Assembly: GCA_017394765.1 (NCBI GenBank)
Contig: JAFPXF010000007.1
Location: 1 to 64,000 of the forward strand
Length of the DNA stretch: 64,000 nt
Direction: 5' to 3'
From: Bacteroidales bacterium
Lineage (GTDB): Bacteria; Bacteroidota; Bacteroidia; Bacteroidales; WCHB1-69
The translations under genes were made by a program, and so were the position numbers. Positions 5,635 to 56,025 of the stretch are shown here, piece after piece. Within the stretch, counting starts at the first letter, position 1. Every line of letters starts with the position of its first letter. The notes under the pieces were generated by a model that was not told the origin of the DNA, ran no database searches, and saw only the letters and a program-made list of their open reading frames with translations.

Positions 5635-5656
5635 CAACAATAAAATGGAATAGAAA

Positions 5657-6121
5657 ATGATTTTAGCAAAAATAAAAAGCAGACTTTTCTATGTCTTTCT
5701 TTGTTCTGTGATACTGGGGGAGAGCACCTCGTTTGTAGCTTGCGAACGGCCAGAACCCGAACCGAATCCTGAACAGTCTGGGGTTGAATGTGACGATGTG
5801 ACCATGCAGATACCGTGTCTGTTATTATCGATGAACTCTATAACTTTAGTGAATGACATCACTACTTTAGCGAATATGTGCCCTGATGCGCCTGCTTTTG
5901 ATTTTACCACTCGATCGTTGGTTGTAGTGTCTGGCTCTTCCACGCATGGAATAGTCAATGTGATTACTGATTTTTATAAGGATGAAGGTTCTTTATATCA
6001 TTTAACGATAAATGTCATACAGGATTATACTTCTGTTGCCGAAGGATGGCATAAATATTATATTATCCCCAAAGTGAATAATGCATCCGACATCATACTT
6101 GCCATTAATTACTGTCATTGA
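5657..6121 (+). CDS. Small putative lipoprotein coupled to the downstream subtilase
   Basis: A 154-residue protein with an N-terminal hydrophobic segment and a possible lipobox-like FVACERPEPEP, followed by a proline/glutamate linker and a single small domain of no recognised family. The coding sequence is AT-rich, unlike uvrA before it but like the first half of the protease after it. The stop TGA shares its A with the ATG of the next gene (TGATG at 6119-6123), a classical translational-coupling arrangement. This suggests a partner of the protease, such as an inhibitor, chaperone or propeptide-like factor. That role is inference only. Confidence 0.7.
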   Translation: MILAKIKSRLFYVFLCSVILGESTSFVACERPEPEPNPEQSGVECDDVTMQIPCLLLSMNSITLVNDITTLANMCPDAPAFDFTTRSLVVVSGSSTHGIVNVITDFYKDEGSLYHLTINVIQDYTSVAEGWHKYYIIPKVNNASDIILAINYCH

Positions 6122-9100
6122 TGAAGCGCTTTGGAATAAAGAAAATGAGAACCATGAAGCATATTTTAGGTTTATTGGTGATAATAGTGTGTTTTTTTTC
6201 ACAATCTTTTGCGCAGAAGACGAACCGCTATTATTATTACCATGGCAATAAAGTAAATTTGCAGCCAGACACATGGTCTTTTGGTGTCTTAACAGGAGAT
6301 ACCTTACGGGTAAAGGAGGAAATAACCGCCAGAGGTTTTTCACTATCAAAACCTTTTGTGTCTGTTTTGGATAAAAGAGGGTGTTCCTATTATACAATAA
6401 TATCTTCTGATAGTAACAATCATGAATACACAATAGATTCTTTATGCTTGATGCTTTCTTTAATTCCTCAAACAACTACAACTCAATGTTTTAAGAAAGG
6501 TAATCGAAGGACCGGTGTGTCGAATAGGTTTTATGTTCAATTACGCAATCTTGACGACTCTCTGTTACTCTATGATTTTGCCACTACTCAACATGTCAAT
6601 GTATTATATGATATCCCAAATATGCCTGACTGGTTTGTGCTATCTTGTCCTTACAACTGTTCAAAAGATGCCATAGATTGTGCTAACCATTTTTTTGAAT
6701 CAGGTTTTTTCTATTCTGCTGAACCAGAATTTGAATTCGAAGGCCGTTTTGCATCAGATGACACTTATTATTCAGATCAATGGGGATTGAGAAATGACGG
6801 ACAATATTTTAATGAATATGCGAATATTGACATTAAAGCAACTGCGGCTTGGAAAATTTCCAAAGGCATGAACACTCTTGTGGCCATATATGATAGTGGT
6901 GTTTATCCCCATCATCCTGATTTGAACGACAATATCATCAATAATAGCTTTGATGCTCAAACAGGATCCTCGTCATCATATGTTTACGACAAACATGGCA
7001 CGGCTTGTGCAGGTATTGTCGCTGCTGAAGAAAACGGAGTTGGGATAGCAGGTGTTGCTCCTAAGTCTGGAATCACTTCGATAAGTATAGCTTTAAATCC
7101 ATTAAACACACCTGAACAATTTGCAAGTGGGTTTAATTGGGCAAGGGAGAATAATATAGACGTGATTAATAATTCATGGGGAGGCATAGATACTTCATCA
7201 TTAATTGAAACAGCAATTAACAGATTAATAAACGAAGGACGTGGAGGTAAAGGTTGTGTGGTTGTGTTTTCTTCAGGAAACGAAAATGATACGAATATTG
7301 AATATCCGGGAAATTTTTCCCCAGACATTCTTGTTGTGGGTGCCATGAGTCCTTGCGGGGAAAGGAAGTCTCCATCCTCGTGCGATCATGAATTTTGGGG
7401 GAGTTGTTACGGGGAACAATTGGATATAATGGCCCCTGGGGTTTTGATCCCGACTACAGATTATCCAGGAAATGCAGGATTTAACCCGAATATCCCTATA
7501 CATCATAATATGGGTGGTGATTTAGTGGAAAACGATTACGATGATGTTGACTACACTGTTTGGTTTAATGGCACTTCTTCCGCTTGTCCGCACGTTGTTG
7601 GAGTAGCAGCACTTATGCTTTCTATTAATCCGAATTTGACAAGCCAAGAAGTCTGTAATATAATAGAACAAACAGCTCAGAAAGTTCGTAAGGATTTATA
7701 CAACTATATTGACACATTTAATCATGTAAATGGAACTTGGTGCTCTCAAATGGGCTATGGCCTTATTGATGCCCACCGTGCTGTGCTGAAGGCCGCCTAT
7801 CATAAGATTTATGGGGATTCCACACTCACGCTTTGCGACATTAATCACGCCTACACTGTTCGCTCACCACACAATGCAAATATTGACAGCGTGTCTTTCT
7901 TTTGGACTTGTTCCAACAATCTACAAATATTATCTGGACAAAACACCGACAGTGTTTGGGTAAGAGCCTTCAATGGAGGTATTGGACAGCTTTGTTGCCA
8001 TATAGTCCATGATAGCGATACGGTCGTCAGCAAATTAGTTGTTCCAATTGTTTCAAACCAGGCAGTGTATGACAATATTTCACTTGACAACGGCATGAAC
8101 TATCCCGACACCCTCATTTTGAGCAGGAATATTGAAATTGATAGTATGACGGTCTTGACATGGCAAAATAAGCGTGTGCTTTGCACGCCTGATTGTCGAA
8201 TCATAGTTCGCCCTGGGGGCAAGTTTATGATGGATGGCTGTATCCTGACCTCTGCCTGCTCCAATGAGATGTGGCAAGGTGTTGAGGTCGTGGGTGATCG
8301 CTCCAAGCACCAGACTGAGGCTGATCAGGGAACTGTTGTGTTTAAGAACGGGGCTCTTGTTGAGAATGCTCGTTGTGGCATTAGGACTGGTCTGGGAAAT
8401 GACAATTGGAATACTACGGGTGGCATCGTCACCGTTCAGAACAGCATATTTCACAACTGTGCCAAGGCTGTAGAATTCCTCGCTTACACTGATACTTTGG
8501 CCACAGGCTTTGTTAACAATAATTTGGGCAGCTTCAAGAACTGTACCTTCACTGTGGATACCACCAATCTGTTTGCCATTAACGGGATCTCTTTCCTCGA
8601 CCACATTTCTCTTTGTGCCGTAAAAGGAGTGAAGTTTATAGGCTGTACCTTTCAGAACCTCACCAACGGACTTGACAACCGCCGCCACGCTATTTTTGCT
8701 CACAATGCAGGCTTTTTGGTGGACGAAAGATGTGACGGCTACGATCCTCTTCAAAATCCACCTGTCTTACCCGATTACTGTGGTTGCCAGCCAGAACTTT
8801 CGGACTCATGCTTCTTCGAAGGTTTCGAAACCGCCATAGAGGCGAGCACAGACGGTATGCCTTTCTCTGTCACCATCAACCGCGCTCGCTTTGCCAGCAA
8901 TGCCACCGCTGTGCGCATCAACGCCAACAACTTCGCCACCGTTACCGAGTGTGACTTCGACTTGCAGTCGGTGCCTATCGGATTGTTGGAGAACATCGGA
9001 TTGTACCTTGACAACTGTACGGGTTATTTAGTGGAGGGAAATTCTTTCACAAAAAGTAACCATGCCCAACTGACAAACATTTCCTCCACAGGTATATGCG

Positions 9101-10383
9101 TCAAGAACTCGGACACCCTCCAGAACGAAATACACCGAAACTTTTTCTACAATCTTAACTATGGTATTTATGTGAAAAACATCAATGGTAACAATAAGAA
9201 AGGGCTGCAGCTCACCTGTAACAGCTTTGACTGGAATGATTACGACATCTACATGTCACTTAAGAGCTCTTTGAAAGCAAATCAAGGCAGTCTTTATGAG
9301 GGAGCTGACAACACCTTCACTAACACTCGAATCAGCAGTATTCACAACGATGGAGCCCAGCAGCTTACCTATTACTTTAGCCGAAGCAGTTCTCATACCC
9401 CATACAATGTGACTACAACGAATGTGACACTTAACTTCTCCGCGGCAGCCAATGCCTGTGCCTCCACATTGTGCAGCGGTGAAGTACCCCAACCGCCTGT
9501 CCCATTGTCGGTGTTCTCCTCAATGATGTCCGCATACACCACTGTTGCATCGGAGATGGAACCTTCAACTACGACGGGTGGCCATTCGATGTGTTCGCAA
9601 ACAAATACGAATGGGTTCCCGCCGAGTGTGTGCGATATGCCCCAACAGTTGGCTTGCGTATATTATAACGCCGTGCGCGCTCTGATGGCCGATTCCCTGC
9701 TTGATATGGATATCCTCGAGCAATGGCATGTCGCCGCCCAACCCATCGCTGACCCCTATTCGTTAACTGAAACGCGGTTTGTATTGGGATATGACGAAGA
9801 TTTTGTACACAACAATCCCGCTATTCCGCTGTCGCAGGCAGCAGAATTCCCAATCGCAACCGACGATTATTACACAGAATTCCATAACCTGAAACGGGAA
9901 TTGCGCGGTTTTGATAGGCAAATCAATTGGTACACGCTTACACCTGTGCAAATCCTGGAGCTGCAGAACATCGCCGATGCCGGCACGGGACGCTCCTCGG
10001 TGATGGCCCGCGGTGTGCTTTGCTTCTTCTTCAACATCTGCGACGAGGAACTGACCCCGCTGGGCGACACGCGCGCCATGCAGGCTAACGGAGCCTTGCA
10101 CGCAAATCTTGACGGATTTGACAACGCTGACTATCCAGAAAAACCCTTCGGCATGGTTATTTATCCCAACCCCGCCAACGATGTGCTTCACATATCCATT
10201 GAGGGCATAGACAACCCTTGCGGCACGCTCACTGTGAGCGACCTTACTGGCGTGGTGGTGCTTACCCGAGAGTGTAGCGCCAACACTTTGCAGCTTAACG
10301 TGTCTGCTCTCTCCTGTGGCCTATATGTGATTACCTTCCGCAATAAGAACGGTGTGATAGTGAGAAAGTTTGTGAAATTGTAG
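6121..10383 (+). CDS. Subtilisin-like (S8) serine protease with T9SS sorting domain
   Basis: A secreted 1420-residue protease. A signal peptide (MKHILGLLVIIVCFFSQSFA) follows a short N-terminal extension; the ATG at 6121 fits coupling with the previous gene, while ATGs at 6145 and 6154 are alternatives. The catalytic triad is visible as D258 (YDSGV), H292 (HGTACAG) and S486 (NGTSSACPH). Residues about 640-1150 contain many short N/D-rich turns resembling a right-handed beta-helix. The last about 80 residues form a type A T9SS domain beginning YPNPANDVLHISIEG and ending VRKFVKL. Base composition changes inside the gene: the protease half is AT-rich, the C-terminal half GC-rich like the surrounding chromosome. 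Confidence 0.93.
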   Translation: MKRFGIKKMRTMKHILGLLVIIVCFFSQSFAQKTNRYYYYHGNKVNLQPDTWSFGVLTGDTLRVKEEITARGFSLSKPFVSVLDKRGCSYYTIISSDSNNHEYTIDSLCLMLSLIPQTTTTQCFKKGNRRTGVSNRFYVQLRNLDDSLLLYDFATTQHVNVLYDIPNMPDWFVLSCPYNCSKDAIDCANHFFESGFFYSAEPEFEFEGRFASDDTYYSDQWGLRNDGQYFNEYANIDIKATAAWKISKGMNTLVAIYDSGVYPHHPDLNDNIINNSFDAQTGSSSSYVYDKHGTACAGIVAAEENGVGIAGVAPKSGITSISIALNPLNTPEQFASGFNWARENNIDVINNSWGGIDTSSLIETAINRLINEGRGGKGCVVVFSSGNENDTNIEYPGNFSPDILVVGAMSPCGERKSPSSCDHEFWGSCYGEQLDIMAPGVLIPTTDYPGNAGFNPNIPIHHNMGGDLVENDYDDVDYTVWFNGTSSACPHVVGVAALMLSINPNLTSQEVCNIIEQTAQKVRKDLYNYIDTFNHVNGTWCSQMGYGLIDAHRAVLKAAYHKIYGDSTLTLCDINHAYTVRSPHNANIDSVSFFWTCSNNLQILSGQNTDSVWVRAFNGGIGQLCCHIVHDSDTVVSKLVVPIVSNQAVYDNISLDNGMNYPDTLILSRNIEIDSMTVLTWQNKRVLCTPDCRIIVRPGGKFMMDGCILTSACSNEMWQGVEVVGDRSKHQTEADQGTVVFKNGALVENARCGIRTGLGNDNWNTTGGIVTVQNSIFHNCAKAVEFLAYTDTLATGFVNNNLGSFKNCTFTVDTTNLFAINGISFLDHISLCAVKGVKFIGCTFQNLTNGLDNRRHAIFAHNAGFLVDERCDGYDPLQNPPVLPDYCGCQPELSDSCFFEGFETAIEASTDGMPFSVTINRARFASNATAVRINANNFATVTECDFDLQSVPIGLLENIGLYLDNCTGYLVEGNSFTKSNHAQLTNISSTGICVKNSDTLQNEIHRNFFYNLNYGIYVKNINGNNKKGLQLTCNSFDWNDYDIYMSLKSSLKANQGSLYEGADNTFTNTRISSIHNDGAQQLTYYFSRSSSHTPYNVTTTNVTLNFSAAANACASTLCSGEVPQPPVPLSVFSSMMSAYTTVASEMEPSTTTGGHSMCSQTNTNGFPPSVCDMPQQLACVYYNAVRALMADSLLDMDILEQWHVAAQPIADPYSLTETRFVLGYDEDFVHNNPAIPLSQAAEFPIATDDYYTEFHNLKRELRGFDRQINWYTLTPVQILELQNIADAGTGRSSVMARGVLCFFFNICDEELTPLGDTRAMQANGALHANLDGFDNADYPEKPFGMVIYPNPANDVLHISIEGIDNPCGTLTVSDLTGVVVLTRECSANTLQLNVSALSCGLYVITFRNKNGVIVRKFVKL

Positions 10384-10403
10384 GCATTATTATGTTTCTT
10401 TTG

Positions 10404-10411
10404 TATCTTTG
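10404..10411 (+). promoter_or_regulatory. Bacteroidota -7 box for the YtxH/holin-like operon
   Basis: TATCTTTG matches the TAnnTTTG -7 consensus, followed by GCGGCGCC, and lies about 90 bases before the 10504 start. A convincing -33 TTTG was not found. Confidence 0.65.
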
Positions 10412-10503
10412 CGGCGCCATATTTTCAGATTATGTTTAACGGGCCTCGCATAGTCTGGGGATGTGGCTCGTAAACAGTTAAAACAGAGGTCCCCTTGAAA
10501 ATT

Positions 10504-18672: not shown

Positions 18673-20414
18673 CGGTTCTTGAGGATGTTTTGGAACACCT
18701 TCTCATCCATGACGACGGGATACTTGGCGCGCAACTCCTTGATCCATTCACCCTCCAGATAGTCCTGGTAGCGGCTGACCACGATGGCGCGGATCTCGCT
18801 GAGCGGCTTGTAGGTGGTGGCGCCGGTGCTGTCCGTGACGGGGAATTCCGTCTTGATCTTCTCATAAAAGCGCTCGATGCCCACGGTGTCCTTGATGGCG
18901 GCGTTCCACACCTTCTCGGAGTTGATCTCGTAGAGCATCATGCCGTCGTGGAATTCCTGCACCAATGCCTTGTATTCGGGATACTTGTCGGCGAGGTGTT
19001 TGCGCTCGTAGCGGATGATGGTCTCGTTGATGAAGTTGGGATAGAGGCTTTCCACGAAGTCCATGATCGGCTCGTTGAGGGGAGTGCCTTGGTAGCGGGA
19101 GATGAATTTGGCGAAATCGAGGGCGGGTACCGACTGGTCGGCGAAGGTGCAGATGGGCTTCAGCTTGTCGATGCCCTTCAGGGTGGTGATGTCGGTCGCG
19201 GTGGACTGGAAGTAGTTGGCAGGCAGGTTCTTCTTGAGGAATTTCATGGTGGCCTTCTTGCCGCTCTCCTCAAAGTTGTAGCTCTTCTTGAGCTTGGCGA
19301 CGAGCGACTCCTTGCTCTTGCGGGCGCGGGCGTCGCGACCCAGGGCGGATTTGAGCATGAACTTGCTCTCCTCGCTGCTGCGGACGTACTCCACGGAGTC
19401 GAGCTTGAGGATATGCCAGCCGATCGTGGTGGGCACGGGTTGGGAGATCTCGCCGGGCTTGAGCCTGATGACCGCGCTCACATAGTTGCCGGGACGGCGG
19501 TTGGGTGCGAAGGGCTCCATGCGGCCGCCGTTGTCGCGGTTAGCACGGTCGTCGGAGTAGTTCTGCGCTAACTCCGCAAAGGTCATCTTCCCGCTTGCAT
19601 ACTGGTCCTGGATGGTGCGCAGGCGTTCCGCAATCGCGGGCTTGACCCCGTTCAGCGCCCCCGTGTCCTCCACAAACACTTGCGAGACGTAAACCTTGCT
19701 GACGGCGGGTATCTTGTCCTGCGTGTAGATGAGGTGGTAGCCGAACTGCGTGCGGATGGGCATGGAAACCTGTCCCACCGGCGTGCTGAACGCGCCTTTT
19801 TCGAAGGGATAGATCATCTCCAACACGGAGAAATAGCCCAACTCGCCCCTGTTGCCGTGGTGAAGCCGGCCATTCTGCGGGTTGACGCGATCCTGCGCCG
19901 ACTCGTCTTCGGAATAGAGATAGGCGGCCTCGTTGAAATCCATGCCTTTCACAATCTTGTCGCGGATCTGCAGGATTTTGTGCAGGGCTGCCAGCGTGTC
20001 CTTAGGGGAGGCGTTGGGACCGCACTTCACGAGGATGTGCGAGGCGCGCACCTGGTATTTGGAGTTCTCAAAAGCCTCCTCCAACAGCTGGTCGCTCACC
20101 TCGGAGTCCACCAGATACTGTTGTGCGGACTGGCTTTGATAGGAGGCTAACTCCTTGTTGAACGCCGCGGAGGTGTCCATCTTCAGGGCCGTTGCCTCCT
20201 GCACCTTCATGCGATAGTTGGTGTAGAGTTCAAGGTAGTCGCGCAACTCTTTCTCCGACGCCTCCTTCAGAGAGTTGTTCTTCTGGAAGGCATTCACAAA
20301 CTCGCCGACCGTCACGTTCTCCTTCCCGATGCGGATGAGCACGTCGTTGTCCGATTGTCCTTTGACGAAAACCAAGGCTCCTATGAACAGTAATGAGAGG
20401 AAAATCCGTTTCAT
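18669..20414 (-). CDS. SurA/PpiC-type peptidyl-prolyl isomerase with two parvulin domains
   Basis: A periplasmic foldase of 581 residues with a signal peptide (MKRIFLSLLFIGALVFVKGQ). An N-terminal helical chaperone region is followed by parvulin domain 1 (RASHILVKCGP, GELGYFSVLEMIYPFEKGAF, TQFGYHLIYTQD) and parvulin domain 2 (VSQVFVEDTG, NGGRMEPFAPNRRPGNYV, TIGWHILKLDSVE). A long C-terminal helical part follows. Such proteins help outer-membrane and secreted proteins fold. A -7 box lies upstream at 20490-20497. It is co-transcribed with the lipoprotein gene that overlaps its end. Confidence 0.92.
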   Translation of the reverse strand: MKRIFLSLLFIGALVFVKGQSDNDVLIRIGKENVTVGEFVNAFQKNNSLKEASEKELRDYLELYTNYRMKVQEATALKMDTSAAFNKELASYQSQSAQQYLVDSEVSDQLLEEAFENSKYQVRASHILVKCGPNASPKDTLAALHKILQIRDKIVKGMDFNEAAYLYSEDESAQDRVNPQNGRLHHGNRGELGYFSVLEMIYPFEKGAFSTPVGQVSMPIRTQFGYHLIYTQDKIPAVSKVYVSQVFVEDTGALNGVKPAIAERLRTIQDQYASGKMTFAELAQNYSDDRANRDNGGRMEPFAPNRRPGNYVSAVIRLKPGEISQPVPTTIGWHILKLDSVEYVRSSEESKFMLKSALGRDARARKSKESLVAKLKKSYNFEESGKKATMKFLKKNLPANYFQSTATDITTLKGIDKLKPICTFADQSVPALDFAKFISRYQGTPLNEPIMDFVESLYPNFINETIIRYERKHLADKYPEYKALVQEFHDGMMLYEINSEKVWNAAIKDTVGIERFYEKIKTEFPVTDSTGATTYKPLSEIRAIVVSRYQDYLEGEWIKELRAKYPVVMDEKVFQNILKNR

Positions 20415-20489
20415 ATTCGTATGTTTTTTATAATAAATTATTCTTATTCAGTAAAATAATAAAAATATCCGCTTCTACGGAAAAGTCTG

Positions 20490-20497
20490 CAAATGTA
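20490..20497 (-). promoter_or_regulatory. -7 box of the peptidyl-prolyl isomerase operon
   Basis: On the minus strand the bases read TACATTTG, matching TAnnTTTG, 76 bases before the ATG at 20414. The intervening leader is AT-rich. Confidence 0.6.
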
Positions 20498-20563
20498 CAT
20501 AATTTTTTGAATTTCCATAGATGGGCGGTGATTGTGCTGTGTGCCGGGTGGTCGGGTATTGGT

Positions 20564-20741
20564 GGAGGTTCCGCTCAACGCTGGCGCGTTTCGCGGAATG
20601 GTGCGGTGTCGCCGAAAAAAAAAGATAATGGGCGGCGGCGGGAGCTGATCCCCAACTACCACTTTCCACCCGCCGCCGCCCATTTTTTTACCCTCGCCGC
20701 GCGCCCACCACCATTCCGCCAGCTCCGCTGGCGGAACCTCC
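20564..20741. repeat. 178 bp nested palindromic element, copy 1
   Basis: A dispersed repeat built as nested inverted repeats. The ends GGAGGTTCCGC (20564-20574) and GCGGAACCTCC (20731-20741) pair. Inside them GCTGGCG (20580-20586) matches CGCCAGC (20717-20723), and GCGGAATGGTG (20593-20603) matches CACCATTCCGC (20709-20719). A perfect 15-base inner stem ATGGGCGGCGGCGGG (20628-20642) matches 20669-20683 around a 26-base loop. T- or A-runs flank the inner stem on both sides, so it resembles a bidirectional terminator. Nearly identical copies are at 20833-21010 and 21683-21861. Confidence 0.93.
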
Positions 20742-20776
20742 CTCTTAACCCTCACAGCTCCGTTGGCGGAACCTCC
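20742..20776. repeat. Single 35 bp unit after element copy 1
   Basis: One unit of the same 35-base family found in arrays after copies 2 and 3, ending GTTGGCGGAACCTCC. The 11-base end is nearly the right terminus of the long element. Confidence 0.85.
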
Positions 20777-20832
20777 AACCGACCCACACAGGCCTCTGGC
20801 CTGCCTGCTGTGGCGCCGCAACCGAATTGGCA
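20777..20832. other. Unique spacer between palindromic elements 1 and 2
   Basis: A 56-base segment with the small hairpin CAGGCC-TCT-GGCCTG and ending ATTGGCA, the same bases that precede copy 3. No coding potential is seen. Confidence 0.6.
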
Positions 20833-21010
20833 GGAGGTTCCGCTCAACGCTGGCGCGTTTCGCGGAATGGTGCGGTGTCGCCGAAAAAAAAAGATAATGG
20901 GCGGCGGCGGGAGCTGATCCCCAACTACCACTTCCCACCCGCCGCCGCCCATTTTTTTACCCTCGCCGCGCGCCCACCACCATTCCGCCAGCTCCGCTGG
21001 CGGAACCTCC
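20833..21010. repeat. 178 bp nested palindromic element, copy 2
   Basis: Same length, orientation and stems as copy 1, with only a few base differences, most visibly in the loop next to the inner stem. It is immediately followed by four 35 bp units and then by the GIY-YIG promoter region. Confidence 0.93.
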
Positions 21011-21150
21011 ACCTTAACCCTCGCAGCTCCGCTGGCGGAACCTCCACCTTAACCCTCGCAGCTCTGCGCGCGGAACCCCCACCTTACCCCTCGCTGCTCC
21101 GCTGGCGGAACCTCCCTCTTACCCCACGCCGCTCCGCTGGCGGAACCTCC
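21011..21150. repeat. 35 bp tandem array, four units
   Basis: Units at 21011-21045, 21046-21080, 21081-21115 and 21116-21150. Each has the form CTTAACCCTCGCAGCTCC then GCTGGCGGAACCTCC, the second unit having GCGCGCGG. There are no unique spacers, so it is not a CRISPR array. Each unit carries the right-end sequence GCGGAACC(T/C)CC of the long element. Confidence 0.93.
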
Positions 21151-21223
21151 CCCTTAACCTCACAAATTTTAACTTATAATTGTTAAAATCACATTGATTG
21201 TCAGTTGTTTAAGAAGTTTTGGC

Positions 21224-21231
21224 TATCTTTG
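21224..21231 (+). promoter_or_regulatory. -7 box of the GIY-YIG gene
   Basis: TATCTTTG followed by CCGCC fits the Bacteroidota -7 box, 29 bases before the ATG at 21260. The gene therefore has its own promoter inside the repeat island. Confidence 0.75.
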
Positions 21232-21259
21232 CCGCCTTAACAAATTAAAACAATCTATT

Positions 21260-21628
21260 ATGAAATCTGGATTTACATACATCATGACCAACAAGCACCA
21301 CAACGTGCTTTATACAGGTTGCACCGTTGACCTTGTCAGACGAGTTTGGCAACATAAGAAGCACTTCTACAAGGGGGCTTTCACCGACAAATACAACTGC
21401 GAATACTGTGTGTATTTTGAGGAATTTCCCGACTACGCCTCCTCCATCAAACGCGAAAACCAAATCAAGAACATGAGCCGGCAGGAAAAACTCGACCTTA
21501 TCCTCGCGGCCAATCCGAATTGGGAGGAGCTGGTGACGGAGAATGGTTTTTGCCAAAAACCTGAATCGTGGAGCGAAAAGGTGAAGAGAGTGATGGATGA
21601 ATTAACACAGGATAATTGTGGCGGTTAG
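21260..21628 (+). CDS. Stand-alone GIY-YIG nuclease (UPF0213-like) inside the repeat island
   Basis: A 122-residue protein made of only a GIY-YIG domain. Catalytic-type residues are in place: Tyr7 in FTYIMT (GIY position), Tyr18 in LYTGCTVDL (YIG position), Arg27/Arg28 with His32 (LVRRVWQHK), and Glu66 in IKRENQIKNMSRQEK, followed by NPNWEEL. It lacks the UvrC and homing-endonuclease DNA-binding extensions, like the UPF0213/YhbQ group. The ATG at 21260 is chosen because the domain starts there and the promoter lies just upstream. Palindromic elements and 35 bp arrays lie on both sides, an arrangement that recalls REP-associated transposases. A role in moving or processing these repeats is inference. 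Confidence 0.9.
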   Translation: MKSGFTYIMTNKHHNVLYTGCTVDLVRRVWQHKKHFYKGAFTDKYNCEYCVYFEEFPDYASSIKRENQIKNMSRQEKLDLILAANPNWEELVTENGFCQKPESWSEKVKRVMDELTQDNCGG

Positions 21629-21644
21629 TGTCTGGTCACATCCG

Positions 21645-21665
21645 GTATTGTTGGAGGTTCCGCCG
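21645..21665. repeat. Partial left end of the palindromic element
   Basis: GGTATTG-TTGGAGGTTCCGCC closely repeats the bases at the left boundary of copy 1 (GGTATTGGTGGAGGTTCCGC) but then diverges. It looks like a truncated or aborted element end, 17 bases left of copy 3. Confidence 0.6.
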
Positions 21666-21682
21666 CCTCGATCAGATTGGCA

Positions 21683-21861
21683 GGAGGTTCCGCTCAACGC
21701 TGGCGCGTTTCGCGGAATGGTGCGGTGTCGCCGAAAAAAAAAAGATAATGGGCGGCGGCGGGAGCTGATCCCCAACTACCACTCCCCACCCGCCGCCGCC
21801 CATTTTTTTACCCTCGCCGCGCGCCCACCACCATTCCGCCAGCTCCGCTGGCGGAACCTCC
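21683..21861. repeat. 179 bp nested palindromic element, copy 3
   Basis: Same orientation and stems as copies 1 and 2, one base longer in the A-run before the inner stem. It is preceded by ATTGGCA like copy 2 and followed by a six-unit 35 bp array. It begins 55 bases after the GIY-YIG stop and could end that transcript. Confidence 0.93.
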
Positions 21862-22073
21862 CTCTTAACCCTCGTCGCTCAACGCTGGCGGAACCCCCCT
21901 CTTAACCCTCACAGCTCCGCTGGCGGAACCCCCACCTTACCCCTCGCCGCTCTGCGCGCGGAACCTCCCTCTTAACCCCCGCCGCTCTGCGCGCGGAACC
22001 CCCACCTTACCCCTCGCCGCTCTGTGCGCGGAACCCCCACCTTACCCCTCGCAGCTCCGCTGGCGGAACCTCC
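21862..22073. repeat. 35 bp tandem array, six units
   Basis: Units at 21862-21898 (37 bases, variant), 21899-21933, 21934-21968, 21969-22003, 22004-22038 and 22039-22073. Two variants alternate: CCGCTGGCGGAACC and CTGCGCGCGGAACC, both short palindromes. No spacers are present. Confidence 0.9.
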
Positions 22074-22354
22074 ACAACAGATAATAGTTGATAGATAAGA
22101 GGTAATAGTTGACAATCGCAAACCGCGAATTATACATAATGTATATGTAATATATTGTATCCCCTCCATTCTCTTTTCCCGCCTGTCTTCGGTCTTTTTT
22201 TTCATAATTTTTTTGAAAACACATTTGGATATTTAAAAAAAAAGTTGTTTATTTGCAGGTTAATTGTATAATTGTGAAAAGATAGATTTTGTGCGAATGT
22301 AAAAAACCTAAATTAGAAACGTAAAATATTAAATATTAACTAAATACAAAAACA
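22074..22354. other. AT-rich leader region before the large FISUMP gene
   Basis: 281 bases without a credible gene. It is strongly AT-rich, unlike the GC-rich repeats before it and the gene after it. It must contain the promoter of the 22355 gene, but no clear TAnnTTTG box with -33 element was found; TAGATTTTG near 22285 is a weak candidate. Confidence 0.5.
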
Positions 22355-25300
22355 ATGCTAAAAAAATTATCAATTACAGGCGGCAACCGCAAACGCGGCG
22401 CGCTGCACACATTTTGCGCAACACTTCTGCCCAGCCTCTTTGTGTTTGCCCTGCTCTTCGGTTCGATGAGCGCGTGGGGACAGACATGGAATGGCTGGTG
22501 CTACAGAGATTATGCTGGAAATGGTACATTTACGGTGCCAGCCAACTGTACCGAGCTTTATATTGAAGCTATCGGTGCCGGTGGCGGTGGCGGTAGGGCA
22601 GACCAACCGTCCAATAGCATATTAAATGCCAATACGCGAACTGGTACTGGCGGCGGTGGCGGTGCGTATGCCCGTAAGCATGTTACCAGCCCGTCGGGCA
22701 ATTACACTATTACAATCGGTATCGGTGGCGGTTCTGGTGCAGATGGTACAGCAACCACAGTTACTGGTTCTGGCTGTAACATTACTGCTGGCGGCGGAAA
22801 GGCTGGTCAAAGCAACATACATGGTGTTGGCACAACAGGAACCGGTGGTGCTGGTGGGACGGCAACCGGTGGTGATGCCAATTATCCAGGCGGCACTGGC
22901 GGTAAGGTGTGCGACAACAGAGACTTGGAAACAGGTTGGGTTCATGATAATGTGGGATCCGGTGGCGGTGGTGGTGCTGGCGGCGGCAACGGCAACGGTG
23001 GTACATCGAACCAACCGACAGGTCACTATGACAATGCGAAGGGTGTTTATGGCGCTGGTGGTGGCGGTTCTGCCAATAACCTTACCAATAATTACTCTAA
23101 CGTGACCACTTGGTACAAAGGTGGTAATGGTGGTGCAGGTCTGTTCCATGACTCTGGTTGGGGTTCAGGCAGCACTGGTGGCTACCCTGGCGGTGGCGGC
23201 GGAGGTGCCCGTGCGAAGGCGAGAAGTGGTAACAACAATGGCGGTAGCGGTTCCAATGGCTTTGTCCGTGTGTGGTTTAAGATTTACAATAATAGCACCA
23301 TGTCGGTGACGGCATCCGCAAGTTCTACTGTCGTGACACCGGGTAGTAGCGTAACGCTTACAGCTACGCCCCATAATAATCTTACGGGCACTAATTTTTC
23401 CACTTCTTACCAATGGAATTCCAATGCCAATAGCTCGACTAGTTCAACCGTGACGTTGAACAACCTGCAATCTACCAAAAATTATGCAGTTACTCTCACA
23501 AATAAGCTGTCGTATGCTTCGCACACTTGTGCTCGCACTGCATCCGGTTCTGTGGATGTAACGGTGTCGGCAACTGTTCCTGATTTCGAAATCATGGCTC
23601 AAAAGTACTCTGCTTGCCCAAATGCAAAGGTTGATATCCAGCCGAAAGAAGCATTGCCAAGTGGTTACGATTGGGCAGTCTTTAAAGATGCAGCTTGTAC
23701 ACAATATGGTGATCCATCGAATCATCATGCGTTTATCAAATCCGGTACAAGTACAGAGACAGCCTATGTGAAGGTTGTTTATGGCGGCTCAGCAGTTGGA
23801 ACGGCAAAAAGCGTTCTTGTTGAAGTCAACGACTTCTGCGGCTCTACTTCCGATTTGACTTGTACAAATGGCACCGTTATCTATAGTGAAGACTTCGGCG
23901 GCAACAATGCCTCTGATCCGAACTACTCTTCCACGAACGCAGGCTTCACCTCTCAAATGACATTCGTTCCCGGTGGCATGCCCGGTCGTGGCGGCTATGG
24001 TATTCTGAAACACATTCCTGAGAACTTCTCTGGATTTACGCCTGTGGCCAACAATTCCGACCATACGAATTTTCCCAACACAAATGTCGGTTATTTCATG
24101 TTCATAGACCCGAGTGACAACTCGATGGGCCAAACTGTGGCGGAGACCACCATCAGCAACCTCTGCGACAACTCTGAGCTCACCTTCTCTTTCTGGGCCT
24201 CCGATATGTGGAGTACCTCGAATGCAAACAATTTCGCGTCAAGTCATTCGGGTGTGCAACCTTCTGTGCCGAAATTCGACATGCAGCTCATTGACCCCTC
24301 TGGTAATATTCTGGTCCAGACGAGTGAATGCACTCCTACCCGTACCGAAAACCAAAGCTGGTATCAGTATGGCGTGAAATATGTTGTTCCTGAGGGTTTG
24401 ACCAGCGTCAAGTTCCGTTTGGTCAACCGCGAAAACAACGGTATGGGCAACGACTATGGCATCGACGACATCAAGGTTACTTTCTGTGGCATCGATATTG
24501 TACAACATAATCCAGACATCGTGGTTTGTGAGGGCGAAAGCGTGGAATTGAACACAACGGTGACAATTTCATCCTCATCCATTATCCCTAATCCTAGATA
24601 CAAATGGCAGAAAACGTCCACCCCGAATGTAGAGAGTTCATGGCAGACTATTGGCATTACAACAGTAGATGATTATGTCATTTCAGCCGCAACGACTTCT
24701 GATGCTGGCTACTATCGCATGTTTGTGGCCGATGAGTCTGTAATTAATGATGTGCCAACCTTTTCCAAATGCGCTATCCGTACGGAGGAGGATTTTCATG
24801 TTGTCGTGAATCCCAAGGTTGAACCGGCTTTCGATTTACAGGAGGAATATTGTTATGGTGCATCTGTAACGCTGCCTACAACATCTGCTAATTCAATTGT
24901 GGGTACATGGTCTCCGGCCACGGTGAACACCACCAACCCCGGCACGCAAACCTATACCTTCACGCCGACGGATATGACGTGTGCCAAGACCTATTCAATT
25001 GATATAACCGTCCAAAATCCGACCGTTGCTGAGATCACGGCGTCTGCCACCACGATCTGCTCCGGAGAGACCGCAACGCTCTCCGTGCCGGAGGTGACCG
25101 GTAACACTTACAAGTGGAGCACGAACGAGACCACCGCAAGCATCACCGTCAACGCGACGGGTACATACAAGGTGACCGTGACCAGCGGCGGCTGCCAGAG
25201 CTTTGGCGAGAAGGCCGTCACGGTGAACCCGAGACCCACTGTCACCCCTGCGGTGACGGCTGCGAAGTGCAAAGGCAGCACCGACGGCCAGGTGGTCCTT

Positions 25301-28300
25301 ACCATCAGCAACGCTGAGGCTCCGTATCAGGTGAAATGGAATGGCGCTACTACAGCCGAGACCGTTACCGGCACTACTTATACCAAGACGGGCCTTGCTG
25401 CCGGCACCTACAGCGCTGAGGTCAGCTCCAAGGGCTGTCCCACGACTGTCACTGGCATTGTGGTTGGCCAACCTGCCGCCGACCTGGCCGTTGCTAACAT
25501 CACTTCCACACCGGAATCCTGTAATGGCAACGACGCTACCGCCACGGTTGAAGTGACGGGCGGCACGGCTCCCTACACCGTCAGATTGGTGGATGGCAGC
25601 AACACCCTTACACCCACGATGGTGGAAGGCAAGTACAAGTTCACCGATCTCACCAGCGGTGCCCCGACGACCACTTCCAAGACCTACACGGTGAGTGTGA
25701 CCGACAAGAACGGCTGTACGCCTACCAGCACAAGCCCCGGCTCTGTCACCATTACGCTCGACAACCCGTTGGCCATGAACAATATCACCATCCCGCCGGT
25801 CTGCTCCGGCTATGAGTTCTCATACGTTCCTGCGAACGGCACGGACGGCACCATCCCTACTGGAACCACCTACAGCTGGCCTCAGCCTGCTGCCATCAGC
25901 GGTATCAGCGGACTGGCTGCATCCACTGGAGACGAATCACGCATCCACGGTACGCTGACCAACAGCACCAACGCACCGATTGTGGTTACCTACACGGTTA
26001 CCCCGAAGAACGGTGTTTGCGTGGGTAATGCCACTCCGAGCAGCGTGACGATCAATGCCGCCGCGACCATCAATCCTACGGTGACCGTCGATGTTGAACC
26101 CAAAGAAGTGTGCCCGAACTACGGCACCATCACGCTCACCGCTCCTTTCTCGAACGTGAACAGCATCCACAGCGTGGTTTGGACGATGGGTCCGACGGAT
26201 AATCAGACAACGGTGAAGACGACAAACAACATCCCTGCCGCCACCACGACTGATAGCTATAACTTCGCTGTGCCCTCTGTAAAGTGTGACACGACCTACC
26301 TCTTCACGGTGGCATACACCGACGAGAGCCACTGCACGGCCACAGATGCTTTTACTGTGAAAGTCAGGATTCCCGCATGGTCCATCAACGCCACCGACTT
26401 CCCGGCAGGCGCTGCCAACGTGGAATGCCAGGCTGACGCCACGGAGCCGACTGCAGTTCCTACCGGCGCTCAAATTAAGGACGGCTGCGGCCAGGCCACG
26501 ACCCGTGAGCTGTATAGCACGGTTGTCAACCCCAATCCTATTGTGGACCAGGGCACGGTGACCTACACCTATCGCTACACCGCTTGCGACGGAAGCCATA
26601 ATGACTGGCAGTTTGTGTACACCGTGGACGACCAGACCGACCCCACTTTCAATGCCGACGTGATCACCACGAAACCGGCCACAGTGCCTGAAACACCCAA
26701 CTGTACCTTCTATGTGCCCGACTTGACTCCCGATGTGATCGGCTCTGTCACGGACAACTGCAGCTCAACGACCAATAACGATTTCACCGTCTCACAGAAT
26801 CCCACGGCTGGAACTCAAATTACGGAGACCACGACTGTGACGGTGACGGTGACTGACAAGGCCGGAAACAGCAGCTCCACGGATGTGCAAGTCACGGTCC
26901 CGACCCCTGTCACAGCCAATGTCACGGGTGAGACGGCTATCACCAATGTCACCTGCCATGGTGGCAACAACGGTTCTTTCACCGTTACGGCAAACGACGG
27001 CAAAACGCCGTACCAATACAGCCGTGATGGTGGTGCCTATCAAACCAGCAACACCTTCTCCGACCTGACTGCCGGTACCTACAGCGTGATGGTGAAGGAC
27101 GCCAACAACTGCACAATTGCCACCCCAATCACGGTGACCGTTACCGAACCCGACGCCCTCCACATCGACGGTTTCCCGACCGACAATGTCTCTGAATTCT
27201 GTGATCCTGATAAGGGTTATGCCACAGTGACATGGACTGCTCCGACGTTCGGACCGAGCGACAACGATGCGACGATGACGATCCTGGTTGAATATCCCGA
27301 TGGCACGACAGCAAACGCCCTGCCTACGGACAACCACTACCCGGTTGGCACGACCACCATTACATATACGGCTTCCAACGATTGTCCTGAAGAAGTGGTG
27401 AAAAGCTTTACCATTACGGTGATTGACAACCAATCGCCTTGCATTGGCTGCGTTCCCGGCAACTTGGATCCTGAGGCTACGGACGGAAACAGCTGTGCCA
27501 AGATTATCGCTTCCGAAACCAACAACATCACACTTGCTGCCGGTGAGTTCACTTACACTCACAGTGACAACAGTTGGAATGTGACCGCTGCCGACAACGA
27601 CGGTATCAAGTCCCTGACCTACACCCTCACGGGTGCCACTTCCGGTAATGGTAACTCTTTGAACGGTGTTACCTTCAATGTGGGTAAGACCACCGTCACC
27701 TGGACGGCCGTTGACAACAGCGATCTTACCGATCAGTGCTCCTTCGATGTGATCGTCAAGGCCCAAGTGACCGTGACGGCCAACTCCGAGCATTTTGATT
27801 ACAACGGCACCGCTCACACCGACAACGGCTATGTGTTGACTTCCGGCACGGTTGTCGCCAGTGGCACCTCCGGCACGCCCGTTGATCTGCCCAACAACGA
27901 CAAACTGACGGCTGTCATCACCGGCACCATCACCAATGCCGGCTCTGTGCCCAATGTGGTCGATAATGTCACCATCGTGCGCGGTTCTGAAGACATGACT
28001 GAATACTACGTCATCAACAAGGTCAACGGTACTCTTACCGTGGACAAGACCGACCTCGTTCTTATCGACAGCGTCTTCAACAAGATCTATGACGGCACAC
28101 CTTTGGTGCTGAACTTCAACGAGCTTGACAAGGTGATCGGTTTGGCTTCCGGCGATGCCTTGACTGCCGGTAAAGTGACCACCGACGGCTATATTGCCGG
28201 TCATTACACCTATAATTATCCTGTGCTTGACGGTGCCAGCTATGTTCCCGGCACGATGACTAACGGCACGGCCTCCATCGTCGTTCCGTTCCAGACCACG

Positions 28301-30100
28301 AATGGTATTGAGAACTATAATCTCATTATCCACATTTATGTATCTATCGTTCCGAGAGACATCACGATCACGGGTGGCAGTGACACCAAGATATACGATG
28401 GCACGGCACTCACCAACTCCACGTATTCCCAAAGCGGCCTCGCCGAGACGGATGATATCACCACTGTGACAGTGACGGGTTCCCAGGTTTGTGTGGGGCA
28501 ATCCGCCAATGAGCCTTCCAATGCCGAGATCAAGCATCGTTCCGACAATGTGGTTGTGAACAACAGCTATAACATCTCTTATGAGGATGGTACGTTGGAG
28601 GTGACAGACATTCCTTCCGACAACCTGACTTGTCCGCCGCAATACGACATCGTGCTGTGGTACGGTCGCTGCGACACCGTGGCATACATGCCGGCCTTCC
28701 CGACCTTGAGCCCGAATGTGGCTTATCCGGATGTCAAGTTCGTCAGCAACGTCGATGAATTCAATCCGTTGCAGCCGGGTCAGACCTACAACATCACATG
28801 GTCTGTCCTCGATGCTTGCGGCGTAGAGATGGCCTCCACACACTGCACCCAAGTGGTGACGGTGAGCTACCCGCCGTGCGACACGGTGGAAGATCTGGAT
28901 GGCTTCAGATACGGTGCAAAACGTATCGGTTGCGATTGCTGGACGGTGGACAACCTCAGAAGCACGCAATACAGCGACGGCACTCCTGTGAACAAGTATT
29001 GGCGTTACAAAGACAGCGATTCCTTGGAGAACATCTACGGCAAGCTCTACACTTGGTACTCTGCCGCTGGCGTGACCGAGGATGACGACATGGCTGTTCC
29101 TGCCGAGGTTATCACCACCACGGGTGCATACGTGCAAGGCATTTGTCCGGAAGGCTGGGCACTGCCTAAGATGGCCGAGTTCTGGACCATGTACAATGTC
29201 TCCGGTGGTCAAGCCGGCCTGGTGAAGAGCCCCTCTTCCCTCGTCTGGTTGCCGGAGCGCGCCGGTATCGCCGAGAACAAGTTCAACGCCTTCGGTGCCG
29301 GTTACTATGCTCCCACCATCGAGAGATACGAGAACCTGCTTGGTGAGACCCACTTCTGGGCTTCCGACACTTCCCGCACAGCCATGATGGCCAAGAACTT
29401 CGAGCTGAACTACTACTGCGAAAACGGTCTCGAGAATCTTGAAGACAAGGGCCTCGGCTACAGCATCCGCTGTGTCAAGAAAGAACCCGTCTTCGAATGC
29501 GGTGTGACCGGTGTCAGCGATCTGCAAGGCAACGGCTATGGCACCATGCAGGTGGGCAACCTCTGCTGGATGACTGAGAACATGCGTTATACGACTGCTG
29601 ACAGCAAGTCTGTCACCGATCAGAATGGTGAAGTGATGGATCCGAGAATCTTCGGTTACCTCTACGACTGGAACAGCATCTTCAACGGCGAGACCCCGGG
29701 CGACAACGTCCAAGGTATCTGCCCGAAGGGCTGGCACATCCCGACCACTGCTGAATGGAATGATCTCCAGAGCAACCTCGCCAATGAGTCCGGCAACTTA
29801 TGTAACAACACAATTGGCAAGTCCATGGCGTCCACCTTCGGCTGGATCAATTCCACCGTTGACTGCGCTGTGGGTAATGAACCTGCTGACAACAACAACA
29901 GCAAGTTCAACGCCATGCCGGTGGGTAATGACGATCCCGTTTGCAACGGCTTCGGCAACATCACCACCTTCTGGACGGCTACGGAGTATAACGCTGACAA
30001 GGCTTATGTCCGCGACATCAACTTCAACAGCCCGGATGTGAACGACTACACGTCCGACAAGACCAACTACAATCCTTTGCGCTGCGTTAAAAACTTATAA
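22355..30100 (+). CDS. Giant secreted surface protein: glycine-rich, SprB-like repeats, MBG and two FISUMP domains
   Basis: A 2581-residue secreted protein. A long signal peptide (hydrophobic LLPSLFVFALLFGSMSAWGQ after a basic n-region) leads into a glycine-rich domain (about residues 70-300). A jelly-roll-like module follows (about 505-720, starting IYSEDFGG). Then come Ig/PKD-like parts and SprB-type repeats, for example AKCKGSTDGQVVLTI, ESCNGNDATATVEV and VTCHGGNNGSFTVTA. MBG-type domains carry KIYDGT (about 1895-2085). Two C-terminal FISUMP domains follow (about 2176-2376 and 2381-2581), with CWTVDNLR/CWMTENMR, GICPEGW/GICPKGWHIP and a final IRCV/LRCV. No usual T9SS type A tail is seen. 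A surface adhesin or polymer-binding role is likely; its ligand is unknown. Confidence 0.85.
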   Translation: MLKKLSITGGNRKRGALHTFCATLLPSLFVFALLFGSMSAWGQTWNGWCYRDYAGNGTFTVPANCTELYIEAIGAGGGGGRADQPSNSILNANTRTGTGGGGGAYARKHVTSPSGNYTITIGIGGGSGADGTATTVTGSGCNITAGGGKAGQSNIHGVGTTGTGGAGGTATGGDANYPGGTGGKVCDNRDLETGWVHDNVGSGGGGGAGGGNGNGGTSNQPTGHYDNAKGVYGAGGGGSANNLTNNYSNVTTWYKGGNGGAGLFHDSGWGSGSTGGYPGGGGGGARAKARSGNNNGGSGSNGFVRVWFKIYNNSTMSVTASASSTVVTPGSSVTLTATPHNNLTGTNFSTSYQWNSNANSSTSSTVTLNNLQSTKNYAVTLTNKLSYASHTCARTASGSVDVTVSATVPDFEIMAQKYSACPNAKVDIQPKEALPSGYDWAVFKDAACTQYGDPSNHHAFIKSGTSTETAYVKVVYGGSAVGTAKSVLVEVNDFCGSTSDLTCTNGTVIYSEDFGGNNASDPNYSSTNAGFTSQMTFVPGGMPGRGGYGILKHIPENFSGFTPVANNSDHTNFPNTNVGYFMFIDPSDNSMGQTVAETTISNLCDNSELTFSFWASDMWSTSNANNFASSHSGVQPSVPKFDMQLIDPSGNILVQTSECTPTRTENQSWYQYGVKYVVPEGLTSVKFRLVNRENNGMGNDYGIDDIKVTFCGIDIVQHNPDIVVCEGESVELNTTVTISSSSIIPNPRYKWQKTSTPNVESSWQTIGITTVDDYVISAATTSDAGYYRMFVADESVINDVPTFSKCAIRTEEDFHVVVNPKVEPAFDLQEEYCYGASVTLPTTSANSIVGTWSPATVNTTNPGTQTYTFTPTDMTCAKTYSIDITVQNPTVAEITASATTICSGETATLSVPEVTGNTYKWSTNETTASITVNATGTYKVTVTSGGCQSFGEKAVTVNPRPTVTPAVTAAKCKGSTDGQVVLTISNAEAPYQVKWNGATTAETVTGTTYTKTGLAAGTYSAEVSSKGCPTTVTGIVVGQPAADLAVANITSTPESCNGNDATATVEVTGGTAPYTVRLVDGSNTLTPTMVEGKYKFTDLTSGAPTTTSKTYTVSVTDKNGCTPTSTSPGSVTITLDNPLAMNNITIPPVCSGYEFSYVPANGTDGTIPTGTTYSWPQPAAISGISGLAASTGDESRIHGTLTNSTNAPIVVTYTVTPKNGVCVGNATPSSVTINAAATINPTVTVDVEPKEVCPNYGTITLTAPFSNVNSIHSVVWTMGPTDNQTTVKTTNNIPAATTTDSYNFAVPSVKCDTTYLFTVAYTDESHCTATDAFTVKVRIPAWSINATDFPAGAANVECQADATEPTAVPTGAQIKDGCGQATTRELYSTVVNPNPIVDQGTVTYTYRYTACDGSHNDWQFVYTVDDQTDPTFNADVITTKPATVPETPNCTFYVPDLTPDVIGSVTDNCSSTTNNDFTVSQNPTAGTQITETTTVTVTVTDKAGNSSSTDVQVTVPTPVTANVTGETAITNVTCHGGNNGSFTVTANDGKTPYQYSRDGGAYQTSNTFSDLTAGTYSVMVKDANNCTIATPITVTVTEPDALHIDGFPTDNVSEFCDPDKGYATVTWTAPTFGPSDNDATMTILVEYPDGTTANALPTDNHYPVGTTTITYTASNDCPEEVVKSFTITVIDNQSPCIGCVPGNLDPEATDGNSCAKIIASETNNITLAAGEFTYTHSDNSWNVTAADNDGIKSLTYTLTGATSGNGNSLNGVTFNVGKTTVTWTAVDNSDLTDQCSFDVIVKAQVTVTANSEHFDYNGTAHTDNGYVLTSGTVVASGTSGTPVDLPNNDKLTAVITGTITNAGSVPNVVDNVTIVRGSEDMTEYYVINKVNGTLTVDKTDLVLIDSVFNKIYDGTPLVLNFNELDKVIGLASGDALTAGKVTTDGYIAGHYTYNYPVLDGASYVPGTMTNGTASIVVPFQTTNGIENYNLIIHIYVSIVPRDITITGGSDTKIYDGTALTNSTYSQSGLAETDDITTVTVTGSQVCVGQSANEPSNAEIKHRSDNVVVNNSYNISYEDGTLEVTDIPSDNLTCPPQYDIVLWYGRCDTVAYMPAFPTLSPNVAYPDVKFVSNVDEFNPLQPGQTYNITWSVLDACGVEMASTHCTQVVTVSYPPCDTVEDLDGFRYGAKRIGCDCWTVDNLRSTQYSDGTPVNKYWRYKDSDSLENIYGKLYTWYSAAGVTEDDDMAVPAEVITTTGAYVQGICPEGWALPKMAEFWTMYNVSGGQAGLVKSPSSLVWLPERAGIAENKFNAFGAGYYAPTIERYENLLGETHFWASDTSRTAMMAKNFELNYYCENGLENLEDKGLGYSIRCVKKEPVFECGVTGVSDLQGNGYGTMQVGNLCWMTENMRYTTADSKSVTDQNGEVMDPRIFGYLYDWNSIFNGETPGDNVQGICPKGWHIPTTAEWNDLQSNLANESGNLCNNTIGKSMASTFGWINSTVDCAVGNEPADNNNSKFNAMPVGNDDPVCNGFGNITTFWTATEYNADKAYVRDINFNSPDVNDYTSDKTNYNPLRCVKNL

Positions 30101-55872: not shown

Positions 55873-55953
55873 TTTGATTCTTGTTAATTAATTGATATTG
55901 ATATATATATGTTTTGTCTGCAACATGAAATGCCGTTTTTCTTTTTCATGCGG

Positions 55954-55961
55954 CAAAAGTA
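55954..55961 (-). promoter_or_regulatory. -7 box of the 1529-residue FISUMP gene
   Basis: Minus strand TACTTTTG followed by CCGCATG, about 82 bases before the ATG. The leader is very AT-rich. Confidence 0.75.
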
Positions 55962-56025
55962 TAAAAAATATCAATACGATTAATAATAAATCAAGTAAAT
56001 ATTTATAATAAATTAAAAATAAATA

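Follow-up and report, generated by a model that had tools for sequence, protein, structure and literature searches.

The window analysed here is a 64,000-nucleotide stretch of Bacteroidales DNA (contig JAFPXF010000007.1, positions 1 to 64,000), in which a 122-codon gene for a stand-alone GIY-YIG nuclease (21260-21628, + strand) is surrounded by three composite hairpin elements of about 178 bp, all in one orientation. In each element, two copies of an outer hairpin, the second inverted, enclose an inner G/C stem of 15 bp. This array is one case of a recurrent partnership between a nuclease and a repeat that has the architecture of the RAYT/REPIN systems (REP-associated tyrosine transposases and the hairpin-forming doublets of repetitive extragenic palindromes, REPs) and lies outside the RAYT family. 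Gene and repeats are associated at homologous loci, the element class goes with the nuclease clade, the elements are discrete and dispersed, their hairpin is kept, and at an orthologous site some genomes carry the cassette of element, gene and element and others lack it.

The homologous loci obtained in one scan numbered 35; they came from Bacteroidales and, at greater distance, from Chitinophaga, Balneola, Chloroflexus and others. The two 600-bp flanks of the gene were similar to each other at 30 of the 35 GIY-YIG loci compared with 7 of 115 control positions taken inside the same loci (p 8e-20). An earlier note on this DNA, made from the sequence alone, had suggested that nuclease and repeats belong together and had named GIY-YIG homologues routinely found without flanking repeats as an outcome that would refute it; the flank comparison gave the opposite result. 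The best match between flanks was in direct orientation at 28 of the 30 loci, and at some loci it was weak (15 bp, E 0.001, at L022). The elements of the window, of locus L011 and of locus L025 were then used as queries, with the self-hits in L011 and L025 excluded. Within 600 bp of the gene, 1.97% of bases matched the window element compared with 0.043% elsewhere (46-fold), 6.2% compared with 0.089% matched the L011 element (70-fold), and 1.2% compared with 0.022% matched the L025 element (54-fold). Enrichment of elements beside this GIY-YIG clade, which the earlier note had asked about, was thus found for three classes, and their loci did not overlap: the three queries matched 8, 10 and 6 loci, respectively, with zero overlap (24 of 35 together), and these sets broadly tracked protein similarity, as judged without a tree. 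In addition, hits of a strict hairpin motif numbered 38 in the neighbourhood of the genes (0.72/kb) but only 5 elsewhere (0.019/kb). Flank similarity, enrichment by class and the strict-motif counts indicate that nuclease clades have element classes of their own, built to a common plan.

That plan comprised a foot of CATTCC..GGAAYC, a variable stem and the inner G/C stem. Folded as single-stranded DNA, the window element reached z-scores of -7.5 (+ strand) and -8.1 (- strand), which none of 200 shuffles equalled. Among 54 distinct hairpins, native arms paired at -11.4 kcal/mol and arms exchanged between hairpins at -7.4 kcal/mol, indicating that the stem persists as its sequence varies. The inner stem carried little covariation signal (native -24.1, swapped -22.1) and was uninformative. 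Alignment of 13 copies from genomes G006 and G008 delimited a discrete unit of about 185-195 bp with mostly unrelated flanks; two pairs among these copies were orthologous, and some flanks had common short extensions or another repeat. As separate observations, genome G001 held ten copies of an inverted repeat of about 115 bp (AATGATTTTGGC..GCCAAAATCATT) with a single window-class hairpin at its centre (L220-L229), and repeats of the form GTCATTGCGAGG..GAAGCAATC were seen by eye to adjoin the GIY-YIG homologues at L032 and L033.

Beyond the gene, the elements were dispersed. The window element or parts of it had matches in 7 of 18 homologue-bearing genomes, up to 31 in number. The L011-type element was found in all 10 genomes of its clade with 6-62 matches, many over the full 127 bp, and the L025-type element in 7 of 9 genomes with 22-136 matches, which among the matches listed were mostly hairpin pieces of 25-35 bp; the counts for all three types take both strands of palindromes, and the places are fewer. 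We also surveyed 99 genomes of the same family, probably mostly metagenome-assembled genomes (MAGs), with statistics that ignore relatedness. The protein had a match at E 0.001 in 28 of them, a close match (E 1e-21 or better) in 20 and none in 71. The window-class hairpin pattern gave 468 hits in 48 of the 99 genomes (a total summed from per-group means), and a reversed control pattern gave 2. The median was 8.5 hairpins in the 20 genomes with a close homologue and 0 in the other 79 (Mann-Whitney, p 1.3e-5). At least four hairpins were present in 14 of the 20 compared with 15 of the 79 (p 2.6e-5, with many exceptions and a bias from the design of the pattern). Eight genomes with weak matches (E 6.8e-10 to 8.4e-4; G021, G023, G044, G045, G055, G060, G075 and G079) were placed in the nuclease-negative group, and G053, G064 and G065 in the positive group despite having 0 hairpins of the window class; when these last three were taken as negative, the p-value was stronger (8e-8).

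Gain, loss and rearrangement of the cassette were followed at a site between a dus gene (tRNA-dihydrouridine synthase) and a HAD-family gene, both named by eye. The HAD gene was matched at E 1e-50 or better in 76 of 100 genomes, and the site was read in 10: the 8 closest (70% identity or more) together with L012 and L018. The cassette was present in four genomes (L010, L011, L012 and L018), absent in three, and replaced by other content in three. In L018 (G017), it was inverted relative to its neighbours. In G210, G205 and G204, the dus and HAD genes abutted, with neither element nor nuclease. G167 had a 23S_rRNA_IVP gene (PF05635, a four-helix bundle) with its own CTATGGCCTATGACTATGGC-type repeats at this place (L245:2150-2660), as did G197 (L241:930-1500, by eye), and this gene and these repeats are possibly another small protein-repeat partnership. 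G206 held a GTCATTGCGGG..CCCGCAATCC hairpin repeat without a gene (L242:1350-1500). For the site of the window itself, a neighbouring peptidyl-prolyl isomerase (PPIase) was matched in 94 of 99 genomes, and 30 loci of its best match were scanned with about 1.5 kb of flank (L298 shorter). Of these loci, only that of G001, a sister species that was used for comparison in place of the window's own genome, contained a GIY-YIG gene or any hairpin of the three classes; the other 29 had neither. Over most of the 64 kb that they share, contig G001:C40 and the window were 93-95% identical. Upstream of the gene the contig carried one full and one truncated element copy, compared with two full copies in the window; this difference in array content indicates that the array turns over.

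A form enclosed by terminal repeats was seen in genome G053. A unit of 539 bp (L086:1374-1912) was bounded by exact 26-bp terminal inverted repeats (TIRs), and the GIY-YIG gene was its sole open reading frame (ORF) of at least 60 residues in the frames read; units of this kind, gene-bearing or gene-less, were also found at L210 and L211. The TIR occurred in 110 copies (up to 3 mismatches) compared with 0 for the control, and the protein query gave 22 matches in this genome, many being incomplete copies where a contig ends. Both TIRs, one with a mismatch, were also kept in gene-less derivatives, which measured 286 and 192 bp. No extra TIR was recognised around the window copies.

PF01541 was the sole Pfam hit of the 122-residue protein (E 5.6e-13; 49.4 bits against a gathering score of 22.6). 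Residues Y7, Y18, R28, H32, E66 and N85, which we take to be the catalytic residues of GIY-YIG enzymes, were kept in 36, 36, 36, 36, 35 and 34 of 36 aligned proteins, so that the residues previously described as intact are in fact near-invariant. An AlphaFold2 model reached a mean predicted local distance difference test score (pLDDT) of 89.7 and a predicted template modelling score (pTM) of 0.77. The nearest solved folds found with it by Foldseek were UPF0213, Slx1 and UvrC GIY-YIG domains, none below E 0.001, and a profile search with the protein gave 1zg2 at E 4.6e-8. A protein 99% identical to it was encoded in a Bacteroidales MAG from yak omasum (contig JAGCCZ010000045.1; L008, G001:C40). 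With the high identity of that contig to the window, this suggests that the window probably comes from a close relative living in a ruminant gut. The window protein returned 125 relatives and a distant proteobacterial homologue 6431. None of the best 120 of these 6431 was named Neisseria, most carrying no name. The GIY-YIG family is very large and has named members in several phyla. Among phages, the matches were all weak and partial, covering 53% of the query at 43% identity in 10 Rhizobium phage records. The protein is not a Y1 (HUH) transposase of the RAYT/REPIN kind, PF01541 alone being matched. Nor does the gene have the setting of a homing endonuclease, which lies within an intron, an intein or its own cut site in a gene; the window gene is intergenic, between repeats.

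A GIY-YIG nuclease with a dispersed repeat of its own has a reported counterpart. Ssn of Neisseria meningitidis, which Chenal et al. are said to have described in Nat Commun in 2025, is reportedly a site-specific single-stranded GIY-YIG nuclease that cuts single-stranded DNA at the repeat NTS, present in hundreds of copies, and through it modulates natural transformation. The family is said to comprise thousands of homologues with differing specificities. The window protein has the single domain and the size of about 100 residues that are reported for this family, and the repeats of the class beside the gene are likewise present in many genomic copies, as reported for Ssn, their cognate role being putative. 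The likeness thus consists of features reported for Ssn, a small single-domain GIY-YIG protein and a putative cognate sequence in many genomic copies. The Bacteroidales system differs from Ssn as reported in its three-stem composite repeat, in the position of the gene between mostly direct copies, and in a cassette that some genomes have at an orthologous site and others do not. The neisserial repeat dRS3 is described as a 20-bp repeat of the form ATTCCC(N8)GGGAAT with almost 700 copies, forming intergenic arrays with neisserial intergenic mosaic elements (NIME) (PMC3898611). ATTCCC..GGGAAT hairpins in the elements beside L009-L018 and the intergenic arrays resemble this arrangement, but in Bacteroidales the elements are composite and measure about 127 to 195 bp, and the window class reads TTCCG..CGGAA. 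Given the reported Ssn system and the resemblance to dRS3, a GIY-YIG nuclease with cognate repeats is, as such, probably not new, and the earlier suggestion of a wholly new kind of pair was not upheld.

The architecture is nevertheless that of RAYT/REPIN systems. RAYT genes are flanked by their own repeats, gene and repeat coevolve, and the number of repeats is tied to the gene, with usually more than 100 REPs per genome (Nunvar 2010, PMC2817692). The shared features are a gene flanked by its own repeats and inverted hairpin doublets dispersed between genes (PMC2817692; Bertels and Rainey 2011, PMC3116915), an enzyme and a repeat class that change together, and, though loosely and with many exceptions, a repeat number that goes with the gene. 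The enzyme here, however, is GIY-YIG and not Y1, the flanking copies are mostly direct and not inverted, there is an extra inner G/C stem, and there are tens of hairpins per genome in place of the usual count of more than 100 REPs (PMC2817692). Among the matches listed in a literature search, which comprised titles and the beginnings of abstracts, we found no account joining GIY-YIG with REP/RAYT-type repeats, and none of a composite REPIN-like element, a cassette with empty sites or a TIR-bounded unit of this kind. Exact TIRs and the coexistence of gene-bearing and gene-less forms in G053 are also features of miniature inverted-repeat transposable elements (MITEs) and minimal insertion sequences. 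The G053 units differ from these in that no DDE transposase was found inside them and no target duplication was seen, and the window copies had no recognised TIR.

We lean modestly toward the view that the nuclease is Ssn-like and is joined with its cognate hairpins in a partnership that is selfish and mobile. The gene product would be a single-domain Ssn-like GIY-YIG nuclease, and its target the outer hairpin of the composite element, with the conserved foot CATTCC..GGAAYC and a variable stem. Nuclease and repeat would make up a small selfish partnership: when replication or DNA uptake exposes an element as a folded single strand, the nuclease would bind and cut it, and the cut, through repair or recombination, could then lead to movement or loss of the element or of the whole cassette of element, gene and element. 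Recognition of the hairpin by the nuclease, cutting of a single strand and dispersal driven by cutting are steps that we infer. A stronger form, a class of minimal mobile elements with a GIY-YIG protein as the sole and, in the full sense, mobilising enzyme, is conceivable but doubtful. Cassettes, in one lineage enclosed in 26-bp TIRs, would then insert, invert, amplify and shed gene-less composite hairpins, a course of events that we put forward tentatively. By analogy, the nuclease might act on folded single-stranded DNA as Y1 transposases are thought to do on REPINs, and this too we advance with reserve. Of the functional link suggested earlier, the general association and the clade-specific repeat class held; mobilisation of the repeats by the nuclease was not supported and is conjecture.

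Several observations weigh against a mobile partnership. No flank similarity was seen at 5 of the 35 loci (L002, L004, L021, L026 and L034), and 11 of the 35 were unmatched by all three element queries, although ten of these 11 (all but L034) had mutually similar flanks of their own. The window-element query matched nothing in 11 of the 18 homologue-bearing genomes; in ten of the 11, the homologues were adjoined by L011-type or another hairpin class, and the hairpins adjoining the gene in G007 were unlike the window query. The earlier note would have been contradicted by elements equally common in genomes lacking the nuclease, and it had asked whether copy number follows the gene. Counts were unequal and tended to go with gene presence, but 4-31 hairpins occurred in 15 of the 79 genomes that lack a close homologue, so that the coupling of gene and element is loose; moreover, the elements on which the hairpin pattern was modelled lay beside nucleases, a choice that biases the counts in favour of the association, and kinship was uncorrected. 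In 14 of these 15 genomes, a GIY-YIG domain was found only in one UvrC-like ORF of 592-926 residues, and in the remaining one none was found. Either the gene was lost or unassembled there, or the elements persist without it; the MAG status of these genomes may explain part of the exceptions, though not surely all. Empty sites in relatives, which the earlier note had also asked about, were found at the dus-HAD site (3 of 10 genomes), but for the window-type element a comparison of G006 with G008 gave no clean pair of empty and filled sites. Three window-class element sites were common to G008 and G006 (L126/L149, L125/L148 and L124/L141). The flanks of nine further elements were searched in these two genomes, the flanks containing other repeats, and of the two cases traced, one was a collapsed single hairpin and the other a 2-kb replacement. 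The collapsed form (L163, G006) differed from the full element beside a tRNA gene in G008 (L134) by a deletion between the loop of hairpin 1 and the foot of hairpin 2. For REPINs, excisions of less than the whole unit have been described (PMC3116915). Finally, the few complete copies in G053, whose ends were read by eye, showed no evident target-site duplication, and the elements could be moved in trans by another transposase.

Movement in trans can be pictured with the elements as MITEs of an unrelated DDE transposase and the GIY-YIG gene as a passenger or parasite of the repeats. The exact 26-bp TIRs of the G053 units are a feature of DDE elements, the solo hairpin of G001 lay inside the further inverted repeat of about 115 bp at 10 of 14 element loci read, and elements do occur in genomes without the nuclease. 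We nevertheless regard this explanation as quite unlikely. The five facing pairs of G053 TIRs (found among 100 of the 110 places, with many contigs breaking inside the element) spanned at most 539 bp, too short for a DDE transposase gene; the window-type elements had no recognised extra TIR; and agreement with the element class clade by clade is not what one expects of a passenger. A resident Y1 transposase of the RAYT type was set aside as mobiliser. Y1 genes (PF01797) were present in 24 of 24 genomes checked, which would suit such a role, but none of ten Y1 loci (L230-L239) carried any of the three GIY-YIG-type hairpin classes. Flanks were mutually similar at 8 of these 10 loci, and the three inspected showed other palindromic repeats. 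That the hairpins are REPs of these enzymes is accordingly very improbable; judging from the repeats beside each gene, two partnerships of enzyme and repeat seem to coexist in the same genomes.

Alternatively, the nuclease might be an Ssn-type factor that serves the host in genome maintenance or DNA uptake by cutting single-stranded DNA, whether incoming or exposed, at its repeats, the repeats having spread by ordinary recombination or selection and not through the nuclease. The reported modulation of transformation by Ssn through NTS, the retention of catalytic residues and the dRS3-like hairpins beside L009-L018 (PMC3898611) are consistent with such a function. The presence, absence and inversion of the dus-HAD cassette and the amplified G053 unit with its gene-less derivatives look mobile, however, and 71 of the 99 family genomes had no protein match, so we consider a host function of this kind rather unlikely. 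We give hardly any credence to coincidence, with the gene lying by chance in an intergenic region rich in repeats. The intergenic regions of G006 and G008 do contain several repeat families, but the 46- to 70-fold enrichment beside the gene in three classes refutes this explanation, and the flank comparison (30 of 35 loci against 7 of 115 positions) also speaks against it.

To our knowledge, the origin and spread of short palindromic bacterial repeats are open outside the Y1/RAYT case. The occurrence of GIY-YIG-repeat and Y1-repeat pairs in the same genomes offers a natural side-by-side comparison, and the GIY-YIG pair lends itself to testing whether DNA can be dispersed by a nuclease other than a transposase. 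The target sequence of each nuclease can also be predicted from the elements, which may aid the finding of sequence-specific single-strand cutters.

In the window, element copy 1, the reference for identities, lies at 20564-20742, copy 2 at 20833-21010 (99.4% identity) and copy 3, downstream of the GIY-YIG gene (PF01541), at 21683-21862 (98.3%), all on the + strand. Their outer hairpins, of the TTCCGC..GCGGAATGG class, are at 20568-20601, 20837-20870 and 21687-21720 (+ strand), and the inverted outer hairpins at 20711-20737, 20980-21006 and 21831-21857 (- strand). The inner G/C stem, which has no strand, occupies 20622-20689 in copy 1 (arms 20622-20642 and 20669-20689), 20891-20958 in copy 2 and 21742-21809 in copy 3. 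Each copy is followed on the + strand by a tract of 35-bp units, at 20721-20777 (2 BLAST matches), 20990-21159 (5) and 21841-22075 (7). Together with the element copies, the 14 matches, spaced mostly 35-36 bp and found on both sides of the gene, bear out the earlier description of three nested inverted repeats of 178-179 bp in one orientation with at least ten such units around the gene. By eye, the unit corresponds to the right half of the second hairpin plus a spacer. The promoter ascribed to the gene was not recovered: a sigma-70 scan gave no + strand site upstream of it, and the number in the region was that of chance (2 found, 1.8 expected). A motif tatctttg at about 21223-21230, spotted by eye, presumably fits the Bacteroidota-type TAnnTTTG. 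Rfam gave no match up to E 0.1 in window positions 19000-23000, and PADLOC and NCBIfam gave none.

Adjoining the array is a gene for a protein of 2581 residues (22355-30100) with Fib_succ_major, SprB and HYR domains; its region was 88% conserved, compared with 93-95% for most of the remaining contig. Two stretches of the window of about 4.7-4.9 kb each (5636-10495 and 51357-56056) were absent from the collinear G001:C40 with nearly clean junctions, and are probably insertions.

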